Shown: in pieces, positions 22,879-27,718 of the stretch
Numbering within the stretch: position 1 is the first letter of the stretch
Layout of the letters: every line of letters begins with the position of its first letter
Assembly: GCA_951812655.1 (NCBI GenBank)
Contig: OX638319.1
Location: forward strand, 496,001 to 560,000
Reading direction: 5' to 3'
Origin: an uncultured Candidatus Nitrosopumilus sp.
Lineage (GTDB): Archaea; Thermoproteota; Nitrososphaeria; Nitrososphaerales; Nitrosopumilaceae
Length of the DNA stretch: 64,000 nucleotides
Translations under genes and position numbers: made by a program
The notes under the pieces: model-generated
What the model saw: only the letters and a program-made list of their open reading frames with translations
Told to the model about the DNA's origin: nothing
Databases searched by the model: none

Positions 22879-23488
22879 TACACTGCATGCAAAATTCTGT
22901 TATAAAAATAGATTTAGAAAAAAATAGGAAAACATGTGCAAATAACTATATGTTCATTTTAAGAGATGAAAAAATTTTTTTAATTGTGTATATTTTTTAC
23001 ATTCTACTGTACTGTGAATTGAATAATGATAATTCTTTTATGTCAAAATGATCTTCTTGTTAATTTTTTTCATTCTTGTCATATGAAAAAATCTCTTTTT
23101 TTATAAATAATGTTCACATCATGTTAGTCTCATTTTTTTTACAAAGATATGCTGAATCTTTTAAAATTAATTCTTTCATGTTGTTTCATTTTATCTTTTC
23201 AAGATGAAAATTGACTCAATCGTCAAAATCTCATTCTTTTTGATATTTAGTTAAAATTCTGATCTAAATAAAACATGATAATACTTGATAAACTCTTTCA
23301 TGGATTTTATGTTAAAATTTTAAGTTTTAAAATAATTTTGAATCTATTAAATTTGTGTCAAATTTCTTAGATTAAAAATAATATGATCTTTAATGAAAAT
23401 TTTCAAGTTAGTTCTTGTTAGTAATTTTTAATTCACTGTGAACCATTTTTTACACCCAAAATTAAGTATGTATTCTAAAAATCAAGTC
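22879..23488. other. AT-rich gene-free stretch
   Basis: About 610 bp without a convincing gene. It is dominated by T and A runs and short ORFs under 20 codons. It separates a divergent pair, a secreted-protein gene and an ESCRT-III gene, so it must hold both promoters and may encode a long leader or small RNA. I could not recognise a defined element. Confidence 0.6.
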
Positions 23489-24130
23489 ATGCCTAGTTTA
23501 TCTGCAAAGTGGTCAAAACAACAGCAGCCAGGGATTGCCGAAAAAATCAATGATACGATTAAGCCAAAAGGCGCTTTGAAACCAAGGGTGAATGAAGGTA
23601 TTAAGAAATTACAATCACAAATTAAAAAATTAGATGCCATGTTATCGAGTTTGCAAGATCGTGATGCTAAATTATTCCAAAGAATTGTTGACGCAACCCA
23701 AAAACATGATGTCCAAACCAGTAAAGTTCTTGGTAACGAATTAGCTGAAGTAAGGAAAGTTTCCAAAATTTTGAGCAGTGCTAGAATTTCGTTAGAACAA
23801 ATTGAGTTACGATTGACAACATGTAGTGATCTTGGAGATACCGTTGTTGCAATAATGCCAACCATGGGATTAATGAGAAATCTTAAGTCATCATTAGGAA
23901 AAGTGATGCCAGGTGCAGAACACGAAATTGGCCAGATGGCCGATATGCTTGGTGGATTTATGACGGAAAGTTTCTCTGGTGATGCAGCATTTGGAATTAA
24001 TGAAACGACCAATTCCGAGTCTGAAAGTATCTTGAAAGAAGCTGCTGCTGTTGCCGAAAGTTCTGCAGGTCAAATGTTCCCTTCTGTTCCTTCTAGTAGT
24101 GAAGAAGCGACAACTGCAAAATTTCTATAA
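23489..24130 (+). CDS. ESCRT-III-like protein, CdvB paralog (first copy)
   Basis: The product is 213 residues from the ATG at 23489 (MPSLSAKW), chosen by alignment with the second paralog at 47964; the frame is open to 23438. The Snf7-like core contains KPKGALKPRVNEGIKKLQSQ, LQDRDAKLFQRIV and GNELAEVRKVSKIL, matching the other copy nearly block for block. A variable acidic Ser-rich tail ends with MFPSVPSSSEE, which is also conserved in the paralog. ESCRT-III proteins polymerise on membranes for cell division and vesicle release. No CdvA or CdvC (Vps4) gene is in the window. Confidence 0.9.
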   Translation: MPSLSAKWSKQQQPGIAEKINDTIKPKGALKPRVNEGIKKLQSQIKKLDAMLSSLQDRDAKLFQRIVDATQKHDVQTSKVLGNELAEVRKVSKILSSARISLEQIELRLTTCSDLGDTVVAIMPTMGLMRNLKSSLGKVMPGAEHEIGQMADMLGGFMTESFSGDAAFGINETTNSESESILKEAAAVAESSAGQMFPSVPSSSEEATTAKFL

Positions 24131-25490: not shown

Positions 25491-25532
25491 TGAAACGACC
25501 TGTTCCGCTATGCGTTCCGCTATGAAGTTTCA
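25491..25532 (+). promoter_or_regulatory. Tandem repeat operator-like element
   Basis: GTTCCGCTATG occurs twice in tandem (25502-25512 and 25514-25524, 12-bp period), framed by the inverted pair TGAAAC (25491-25496) and GTTTCA (25527-25532). The element lies 39-80 bp upstream of the wHTH regulator and is markedly more GC-rich than its surroundings, as expected for a protein-binding site, possibly autoregulatory. Confidence 0.55.
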
Positions 25533-25570
25533 AAATGTTCCTCATAAACTACATCATTGTATACTAGAAC

Positions 25571-25858
25571 ATGTCAAAACAACAATACAGGTCCGAAATG
25601 GGCATAATGGGTGATATCTTAGACGTAACCGCTGATGGCGGTCGTGGTGGAGTCATTGTATCTGCAATCTCTCGCAAAGCCAACCTATCTCACTATGCAG
25701 TACTAGACAAATGTGAGAAATTGGTAGAAGCTGGCTTAGTCGAATCCGTCAAAAATGACAGAAATAGAGTCTTTTTGATTACTGAAAAAGGAATTTTGTT
25801 CTTTCAGGAATTCAAAAGATTTCAGGGACTTGTGGAAAGCATGAATCTTAGGTATTGA
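25571..25858 (+). CDS. Winged-helix transcriptional regulator
   Basis: The protein has 95 residues from an ATG at 25571. The chain is a single winged helix: MGDILDVTADGG, then VIVSAISRKANLSHYAVLDK as helix-turn-helix, LVEAGLVES and a wing NRVFLITEKGILFFQEF. This matches the archaeal HTH_45-type small regulators. An operator-like tandem repeat lies upstream. The following two genes, a membrane wHTH protein (4-bp gap) and a secreted protein (overlapping), appear to be in the same operon. Confidence 0.8.
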   Translation: MSKQQYRSEMGIMGDILDVTADGGRGGVIVSAISRKANLSHYAVLDKCEKLVEAGLVESVKNDRNRVFLITEKGILFFQEFKRFQGLVESMNLRY

Positions 25859-25862
25859 GTAG

Positions 25863-26915
25863 ATGAATCAAGAAATTGTGTCAATGTATAGAAAAGAGTG
25901 TCTTCGAGATGATGGAATGCTTTTTGTAAGGACTGAGGCAATCTTTGATACAATGATCAAAACACCTCTTTTGGTAGCTAGTTTGATTATTGTAGCAGCT
26001 ATAATGCCTGTTCAGTCTTCATTCAGTTCTCCTAGAGCCCTAGATCTAATTATATATCCTGATGGCTCTACTCATGTTTCTACAGAAATTGATGTAGATC
26101 CACTCGTTGCTGATTTTGAGCTTGATCTATTTGGAAGCACCATTGATAATCTTGTAGTGGTAAATGAAAATGGGTTTTTACTCAACACTGAGATAATAGG
26201 TGATTTTGCCTTGGTTGAAACCTTTGGTTCGTCTATCATTTTTGTAGAATATGATATTCATGACTTAGTCTCTAAACAAGGTAGGATGTGGACATTTTAT
26301 TTAGATGCCCCTTCAGATTTTTCCTTATTCTTACCCAAAAACTCTGCAATTGTTGGAATGACTAATCTTCCGATCAATATGGAAATTATACGTGATCAAA
26401 ACCAACTAACATTATCTTCTGGTGAGGCTGAAATTAATTATCTTTTTGGAACTTCTCATACTATATCAGATCCAGTGATTCCTGATAATCCTGCACCTGA
26501 AATTGATGATTTTGTATTTTTGATTATTGGTGGAATTGCATTGACTGTGATTGTGGTCATAGGAATAATGGTAATGCGAACTAAGCAAAAAACAGCTAAA
26601 TCAGTACTAGGGAAACAAACAATCCAAAAAACTGAAACCGTTGACACTGAAACCGTTGACACTGAAACCGTTGACACTGAAACCATTTTCAAAATTAAAC
26701 CAGATCTTCGTGAAGATGATAAAGAGATAGTGAGGTTTATTTCTAATAATGGGGGAGAAGTTCTTGAAAGTGATTTACGTAAAAAATTTTTACAACCAAG
26801 AACCACCATGTGGCGTGCAGTAAAGCGATTAGAAAGAAATGGTATTATAGAAATTGAAAAGAAAGATTTGCAAAATCTGGTAAAGATACGAAAGGATATT
26901 GAGGAAGAAAAATGA
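25863..26915 (+). CDS. Membrane protein with extracellular domain and cytoplasmic winged helix
   Basis: The frame opens at ATG 25863 (350 residues); an internal ATG at 25953 places a signal peptide (MIKTPLLVASLIIVAAIM) at the very N-terminus and may be the true start. An exported beta-sandwich-like domain (about residues 55-205) is followed by a transmembrane helix (about 222-243), a linker containing VDTET repeats, and a C-terminal winged helix (about 285-345: LRKKFLQPRTTMWRAVKRLE). This is a one-component receptor-regulator architecture. The ligand is unknown. The stop overlaps the next start (ATGA). Confidence 0.75.
   Translation: MNQEIVSMYRKECLRDDGMLFVRTEAIFDTMIKTPLLVASLIIVAAIMPVQSSFSSPRALDLIIYPDGSTHVSTEIDVDPLVADFELDLFGSTIDNLVVVNENGFLLNTEIIGDFALVETFGSSIIFVEYDIHDLVSKQGRMWTFYLDAPSDFSLFLPKNSAIVGMTNLPINMEIIRDQNQLTLSSGEAEINYLFGTSHTISDPVIPDNPAPEIDDFVFLIIGGIALTVIVVIGIMVMRTKQKTAKSVLGKQTIQKTETVDTETVDTETVDTETIFKIKPDLREDDKEIVRFISNNGGEVLESDLRKKFLQPRTTMWRAVKRLERNGIIEIEKKDLQNLVKIRKDIEEEK
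26631..26684 (+). repeat. 15-bp minisatellite within coding sequence
   Basis: ACTGAAACCGTTGAC is repeated three times without mismatch (26631-26645, 26646-26660, 26661-26675) plus a partial fourth copy to 26684. It encodes TETVD repeats in the cytoplasmic linker. The unit is a multiple of three, so copy-number change would alter linker length without frameshift. Confidence 0.9.
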
Positions 26916-27718
26916 AAACATTAGCGTTATTTACAATATTTGTCTTAATTTTTGGAACAGCATCATCATCATTCAGTGATGCATATGCACAAAATGATCC
27001 TACTGTTTTGTTACGAATTGCTACGCAAGCAGATACTGAAATCCTAAACCAATTGGAAAACTCTTACGGTGATTCTGTACCTTCTGATGTACAAGCACTA
27101 TATGAAAAAGGAAATGCTGCAGTAGAATCACTTGAAAGTTCTCTTTCTGATAACGTAGAACAAGCAAAAGAGGATTTTCTTATTGCAATGAAGTCGTTCA
27201 GGCAAATTTCGAATCTCATTTCTGAACCTTCTTCTGAAACAAAATCTATCCCATCTTTTGACAGGGATCTTGAAAGTGAACTTAACCGATTATACAAATA
27301 TTTTCAGAGTCTGAAAACAATATCTCAGAAACATAACACCGGAATTGATTTTTCTGAAATTGAACAGAAATTTGTTCTAGTTCGTGAACAAATTAATTCT
27401 GATATGCATGATGAATCTACTAAAACTCTTCATGAATTAGAATCCCTTATTCACGTAAAGAATCAGAAAATTCGTGAACATTCGTCTAATTCGGCTTCTG
27501 ACAGAATTATCATATTTGCATTAAAACAGCTAGAAAAAATTCAAAAAATGCTTGATGATCCAACGTTAGATACTAGCATGCCTGAGTTTGCAATCGCTAT
27601 TTCTCTAGTTGCAGAGATTGAAACTTTGATTTCAGAAGATAATATTCCTGATGCTAAGGAAAAATTTGGTGAATTGAATAAAATAATGAAAATTATCAAA
27701 AGATCAAATGGCCAATAA
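26912..27718 (+). CDS. Secreted helical protein
   Basis: The protein has 268 residues. A signal peptide (1-25, ending AYAQN) precedes an almost fully helical chain: TEILNQLENSYGDSVP, NAAVESLESSLSDNVEQAKE, LESELNRLYKYFQSLKTIS, LESLIHVKNQKIREHS, FALKQLEKIQKMLDD. No cysteine and no enzyme motif are present. The start codon overlaps the upstream stop by 4 bp, so its translation is coupled to the membrane wHTH protein. It may be an extracellular partner or ligand-binding helper of that protein; this is inferred from coupling only. Confidence 0.65.
   Translation: MKTLALFTIFVLIFGTASSSFSDAYAQNDPTVLLRIATQADTEILNQLENSYGDSVPSDVQALYEKGNAAVESLESSLSDNVEQAKEDFLIAMKSFRQISNLISEPSSETKSIPSFDRDLESELNRLYKYFQSLKTISQKHNTGIDFSEIEQKFVLVREQINSDMHDESTKTLHELESLIHVKNQKIREHSSNSASDRIIIFALKQLEKIQKMLDDPTLDTSMPEFAIAISLVAEIETLISEDNIPDAKEKFGELNKIMKIIKRSNGQ

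Follow-up and report, generated by a model that had tools for sequence, protein, structure and literature searches.

Three consecutive genes in the analysed stretch of DNA (the window, 64,000 nucleotides) encode a soluble winged-helix regulator (W), a membrane-anchored regulator (R) and a secreted protein predicted to be helical (S), and to judge from comparison of their upstream regions the tandem repeat in front of them is a real control element dedicated to the W-R-S unit. We propose that W-R-S is an autoregulated envelope-sensing operon, a reading to which we give about an even chance. The window comes from a 1.67-Mb single-contig Nitrosopumilaceae genome. To our knowledge, very little is known about how ammonia-oxidising archaea regulate their cell surface, and the operon suggests that they couple a soluble DNA-binding protein and a membrane DNA-binding sensor to a fast-changing, swappable secreted protein. 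The module is compact and kept across a family of widespread archaea, its one-copy operator makes the circuit directly testable, and nature has exchanged S more than once, in one case with R nearly the same, which provides ready-made experiments on the need for a particular partner.

Organisation of the operon

W (95 residues, 25571-25858), R (350 residues, 25863-26915) and S (268 residues, 26912-27718) all lie on the + strand. R starts 4 bp past W, and the start of S overlaps the stop of R by 4 bp (ATGA); the sequence-only reading had described both junctions, and they were found as described, at 25863 and 26912. Among 80 loci with R (the window's own and 79 of the 80 fetched), the W-R gap lies between -4 and +6 bp in 76 (2, 3, 4 or 6 bp in 74 and -4 bp in 2), and R and S overlap by 4 bp in 68, by 1 bp in 5 and by 8 bp in 3, S being unfound in 4; in this set, ORF picking overlooked R in L070 and S in L083, L096, L100 and L118. 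A second set of 80 named loci, some of whose genomes are shared with the first, has the same W-R-S layout. With one promoter, close W-R spacing and the R/S overlap, the three genes form one unit that looks co-transcribed, in agreement with the single transcription unit proposed earlier. A shorter R, beginning at M31 (25953) and read from a separate promoter in the resulting 94-bp gap, was considered and rejected: the upstream frame is open, and the first 31 residues hold a GMLFVRT segment, ahead of the first hydrophobic stretch, that is conserved across genera. R does start later in L078, L090 and L100, all three from a single outlying genus.

Operator and promoter

W passes the Pfam HTH_45 model (PF14947, 35.9 bits against a gathering cut-off of 25.5), which bears out its assignment as a winged helix-turn-helix (wHTH) regulator. 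It also resembles Sso10a (33.1 bits, short of the NF053610 cut-off of 60) and gives 20.3 bits with the ArnR model NF041016, whose cut-off of 400 is not reached.

Upstream of W, two tandem GTTCCGCTATG units occupy 25502-25512 and 25514-25524 on the + strand, with a start-to-start spacing of 12, and are flanked by a left half-site TGAAAC (25491-25496) and a GTTTCA element (25527-25532). A putative core promoter follows (25533-25570, + strand), with the TATA-like CCTCATAAAC at 25540-25549 and TATACTA at 25560-25566; CCT[CGA]AT[AT]A is found in 68 of 81 promoters, and 67 of 81 have TATA or ATAC close to the start codon; from these sequences the TATA box is probably correctly assigned and the transcript probably leaderless.

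Judged from the window alone the tandem repeat could be due to chance, since shuffles of the window gave at least two matches with at most one mismatch in 4 of 100 cases. It is nonetheless real, because it is conserved across promoters: two GTTCCGCT units with at most two mismatches in total are present in 76 of 81, two exact units in 66 and at least one exact unit in 77. The consensus of the 81 aligned upstream regions reads GTTCCGCT-N-TG-N-GTTCCGCT-N-TG-NN-GTTTCA...CCTNATNAA, with the GTTCCGCT and TTTCA columns conserved at about 90% or more. The tandem repeat noted before the wHTH gene thus stands. The TGAAAC/GTTTCA frame that had been described around it is present at this locus and weaker elsewhere: it is exact in only 26 of 81 promoters, and the looser TGRAAC-N4/5-GTTYC occurs with at most one mismatch in 62 and exactly in 34. 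The distance of the operator to the start codon is near-fixed: of the 81 promoters examined, 74 have the exact GTTTCA hexamer, and in 69 of these it lies 43-44 nt from the start of W. The operator ends at -39. In archaeal promoters a position just upstream of BRE/TATA suits an activator. The placement would thus suit activation, although position alone cannot separate an activator from a repressor.

The full 31-bp site (at most three mismatches) occurs exactly once in 44 of 61 family genomes and more than once in none; a reversed-pattern control gave no match in any of the 61. In the window's own genome there is one site, and the control gave none. Every full site sits at the W promoter (distances compared by eye), also in G056, where a contig break falls inside W and the site was read directly. 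Some of the 17 genomes without a full site have no W, and others have W with an altered operator, namely G001 (one unit fewer), genus g15 (at L078 both arms read TGGAAC...GTTCCA) and G043. No such element was seen by eye in the 130 bp upstream of W paralogues in seven loci. It is likewise absent upstream of all 14 R genes analysed from other families, none of which has an adjacent W and which show only single-unit matches with 3-4 mismatches of 11. The operator therefore goes with W rather than with R in its distribution. Two wider roles were rejected on these grounds: with one full site per genome the full operator is not a genome-wide regulon site, and with no such site near the 14 distant R genes it is not bound by R across the class. 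That the operator is single-copy, promoter-proximal and W-linked favours a local circuit read by W.

Architecture of R and the Ost1-like fold

The AlphaFold2 model of R, built from 57 sequences, has a beta domain at residues 57-196 (pLDDT 90-95), a helix at 217-240 and a winged helix at 272-349; its pTM is 0.44, the outside domain being confident and the membrane and linker parts of low confidence. This prediction agrees with the extracellular domain, membrane helix and cytoplasmic winged helix described from the sequence, except that, given the N-terminal hydrophobic stretch, R may keep one or two membrane helices. Neither R nor S passes any Pfam cut-off. The winged helix, strongly conserved across the class, has MarR/HTH_24-like matches (HTH_24 in 26 of 27 R members at E<=1, the R of the window itself being below the Pfam cut-off), and R scores 14.8-18.5 bits with DUF7343 (PF24034), below the cut-off of 27.6 and yet the best match in its genome. 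R has no match to the ArnR model NF041016, and a sequence search of the PDB gave a best E of 0.91. An in-frame 15-nt tandem repeat (26632-26685) in the cytoplasmic linker gives ETVDTETVDTETVDTET. In several genera (L073, L079, L104, L230 and others) R has extra helical-looking repeats between the outside domain and the membrane helix; that this helical insert and S are clear homologues was rejected (hhalign E 0.023, probability 2).

The best structural matches of the outside domain are eight Ost1/ribophorin I entries, which take ranks 1-8 with Z 12.4-14.2; against residues 232-447 of yeast Ost1, Z is 14.2 and the rmsd 2.6 A over 144 residues. The matched part is the membrane-proximal luminal domain of Ost1. 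The next matches are N-terminal domains of M1 aminopeptidases (Z up to 11.7), and Foldseek matched R to Ost1/ribophorin with E 2.5e-6. OST1 is reported from TACK and Asgard archaea (PMC11417166). The Ost1 family PF04597 is absent among the best 25 of the 37 families matched by 27 R proteins at E<=1 and has no match in the window's own genome at E<=0.01; many members of the phylum outside this family have an archaeal Ost1 protein, 30 of 151 genomes with one above the Pfam cut-off, and the family itself has two weak sub-cut-off hits among the matches listed. A comparison of the R profile with ten archaeal Ost1 proteins (L264-L273, from 10 of the 37 genomes with PF04597 hits) aligned R to the same Ost1 domain with modest scores (E 1.9e-4 and probability 47 with A5; E 0.0053 and probability 6.8 with A2). 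The outside domain alone gave E 0.0081 and scored 25.7, where 200 column shuffles reached at most 21.85; a control pair of S and the Ost1 profile gave E 0.0014, on signal peptides.

The outside domain is thus predicted to have the same fold as the Ost1 domain, with homology a possibility. We found no report of this fold in R in the open-licence literature as judged from listings, which makes this a weak statement. An Ost1-like fold would link a domain of the eukaryotic secretory pathway with archaeal gene control. It is a speculative and rather improbable extension that R is an Ost1-type translocon or oligosaccharyltransferase domain rewired to DNA, which would report the load of secretion or surface glycoproteins to the promoter of a swappable surface protein; if true, co-component signalling would have an archaeal counterpart of independent origin and with its topology reversed.

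Distribution of the three genes

Of the 151 family genomes searched, 136 gave a match to R (E<=0.001) and 123 a match to helical S, and every one has W or a paralogue. When the search rows were sorted by eye into proper orthologues, R proper (E<1e-20) was present in 130 of 151 and W proper (at least about 60% identical) in 128 of those 130; the two exceptions, G007 and G140, have a partial R match that probably reflects a contig end. Of the 130 genomes, 123 have helical S in the S slot and 6 (G024, G040, G046, G059, G086 and G109) an unrelated 116-residue protein; in G137 the slot lies near a contig start. All three genes are missing from 21 of 151 genomes, several of them incomplete MAGs but the single-contig G006 and G023 among them; family genomes are related, and these counts are not independent events. 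In one locus (L063, G124) W is intact while R contains three TGA and one TAA and S two TGA and two TAA, which reflects either decay of the module or assembly errors.

The co-occurrence search suggested by the sequence-only reading was thus run, and it showed joint presence and loss within the family. Across the class, the R profile matches 178 of 250 genomes, a count that includes the family itself. Fifteen stretches, all with R, were taken from 14 genomes that belong to other families, and 14 of these loci were analysed, L238 (a short R fragment) being left out. W is adjacent to R in none of the 14, the one W-like match (L231) lying elsewhere in its stretch, and an HMM search found helical S beside R in three (L227, L228 and L235), with no S hit in 11. 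Among the neighbours of distant R genes, four on the same strand and three convergent ones appear to encode secreted helical proteins (four of the seven judged by eye). Because W is adjacent to none of the 14 distant R genes, R is more widespread than the W-R-S module, and W with its operator looks like a family-level addition to R. The self-contained module proposed earlier therefore holds within the family, where the genes are kept or lost together if contig ends and replaced S are allowed for; outside the family R does occur without its partners, since none of the 14 distant loci has an adjacent W and 11 of them give no S hit.

S, a fast-evolving and replaceable protein

After a signal-peptide-like start, the AlphaFold2 model of S is all helix, with ten helices listed and a pTM of 0.41, as expected of the secreted helical protein that had been proposed as third gene product; Foldseek returned no PDB match at E<=0.001 (84 at E<=10). 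In 54 of 81 loci with helical S longer than 180 residues and with QueE and FolE, mean pairwise identity is 0.84 for W (precisely 0.838), 0.81 for FolE, 0.76 for the R winged helix, 0.75 for QueE, 0.57 for the R outside domain and 0.36 for S. Among the operon's parts, S evolves fastest and W slowest.

S has been replaced at least twice by the unrelated 116-residue protein, since well-supported branches of the R tree (93 rows, 15 with short S) force at least two changes. In the second locus set the short S occupies 10 of 80 loci, each keeping the 4-bp overlap. One case is a pair with different S types, L095 (NPMR theta_1; R identical to that of L167) and L105 (theta_2; R identical to that of L169). 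Their R proteins are 93% identical, the 27 differing alignment positions being spread over R; DNA identity is 92% as far as 16 bp past the end of R and 95% again beyond a point about 35 bp downstream of the short S. The difference is confined to S, at 116 against 267 residues and 24% identity in a forced alignment. Relatives of the 116-residue protein occur in 25 of 151 genomes, slot copies included, and 12 aligned members share an invariant GCVSC segment; we read its fold from the sequence as beta and probably Fn3-like. In G109 a near-copy lies directly after a W paralogue (L250, 4360-5058) and is a possible source of the swap. The long S of some genera (L073, L116, L125, L126 and L128) ends in His-rich low-complexity tails.

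Proposed circuit and alternative explanations

In the circuit that we propose, W, probably as a dimer, would bind the GTTYC-type half-sites at about -80 to -39, immediately upstream of the core promoter. R would sit in the membrane, where its Ost1-like beta domain may sense conditions at the cell surface or in secretion; on the cytoplasmic side, its winged helix would act at the same promoter, with or against W. This winged helix may act at the W promoter or elsewhere, and R may thus act on other promoters. The output would be S, a secreted surface protein that evolves fast and is encoded on the same transcript, and S or its load may feed back on R and close the loop. Binding of W to the operator, the sign of regulation, the action of R at the promoter, its stimulus and the role of S as output are all inferred. 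Replacement of S in the same slot with its junction kept is as expected if S is cargo, and a swap with R little changed argues that S is the product of the circuit rather than what R is built to bind. S would then be mainly the operon's envelope output under the control of W and R, and less likely the cognate ligand of R.

Less probable, though the strongest competitor, is a co-component-like arrangement in which, by analogy, S would be the extracytoplasmic partner or ligand that sets R activity through the beta domain, with W as a helper. The overlap of the R and S genes and the fast evolution of S fit this known type, described for VtrA/VtrC and ToxR/ToxS in PMC9214523, and in some distant families an S-like secreted ORF stands beside R without W. 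An R-S neighbourhood of this kind, found by HMM in 3 of 14 distant loci, counts against our preferred reading, as does the tracking of the R outside domain by S: given QueE and FolE, S distances correlate at 0.65 with the R outside domain, 0.42 with the R winged helix and 0.24 with W (no significance test applied), which favours R-S contact. The R outside domain also tracks W (0.62), however, so the signal is non-specific. Against a dedicated partner stand the 11 of 14 distant loci where R has no S hit, the predicted helical fold of S, which is not lipocalin-like, and its exchange for an unrelated protein beside an R that is 93% identical, with differences scattered over R. The earlier idea of S as a fixed outside partner of R is thus not supported.

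It is improbable that W alone autoregulates, with R merely co-expressed and regulating a distant target such as surface genes and S an unrelated passenger: the operator follows W and not R, and other families of the class have R without W, but the three genes are almost always lost together and keep the 4-bp overlap, which speaks against this reading. Ordinary synteny in a slowly rearranging lineage, with no functional link, is very improbable. The downstream neighbours QueE (66 of 81 loci) and FolE (63 of 81) are likewise close enough to fall inside the fetched stretch, but the 4-bp overlap survives S replacement, the single operator is dedicated and the genes are lost jointly within the family.

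Relation to known systems

By the tested cut-offs R and W are not assignable to Ost1, Sso10a, ArnR or DUF7343. ArnR and ArnR1 of Sulfolobus have an N-terminal DNA-binding part, unlike R. They share with R that they are archaeal membrane-bound wHTH regulators, in their case of surface structures (as cited in PMC13286277). W is similar in sequence to Sso10a/HTH_45 proteins but goes with a specific operator. Compared with Ost1/ribophorin I, R has one beta domain, with a cytoplasmic wHTH in place of the ribosome-binding part that PMC11417166 reports for Ost1.

Transmembrane transcription regulators (TTRs) are one-component systems, archaeal ones included, that join a DNA-binding domain and a membrane helix in one chain (PMC10269533). 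R is such a TTR, its chain being predicted to hold both a DNA-binding domain and one or more membrane helices; it differs from those described there in its C-terminal DNA-binding domain and Ost1-like outside domain, and its operon adds a dedicated wHTH gene and a gene for a secreted protein. The main text of that paper has no occurrence of Nitrosopumilus or Nitrososphaer-.

In VtrA/VtrC and ToxR/ToxS (PMC9214523), the transcription factor is tethered to the membrane, and a gene that partly overlaps its own encodes an extracytoplasmic protein that evolves fast. R-S has in common with them the tethered regulator and the adjacent, overlapping, fast-evolving partner gene (4 bp in 68 of 80 loci). 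Their regulators, however, have an N-terminal cytoplasmic HTH of the CadC/OmpR type and a C-terminal outside domain, whereas R has the opposite order and another type of wHTH; the VtrA/VtrC partner is lipocalin-like (beta), whereas S is predicted to be all helix; and R-S adds the swap of the partner for an unrelated protein and the extra soluble regulator W. R-S thus resembles co-component systems somewhat but departs from two of their defining features, the topology and the lipocalin-like partner.

Judged by the titles listed, the open-licence literature on DUF7343/DUF7345/COG2512 and that on Nitrosopumilus regulators contain nothing on the operon, and for the locus tags Nmar_0028-0037 the same literature gave one paper, on the CdvB Nmar_0029. 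In the window, a CdvB-type cell-division paralogue (149 bits to NF041005, below the cut-off of 350) lies upstream at 23438-24130, with two minus-strand genes between it and the operon.
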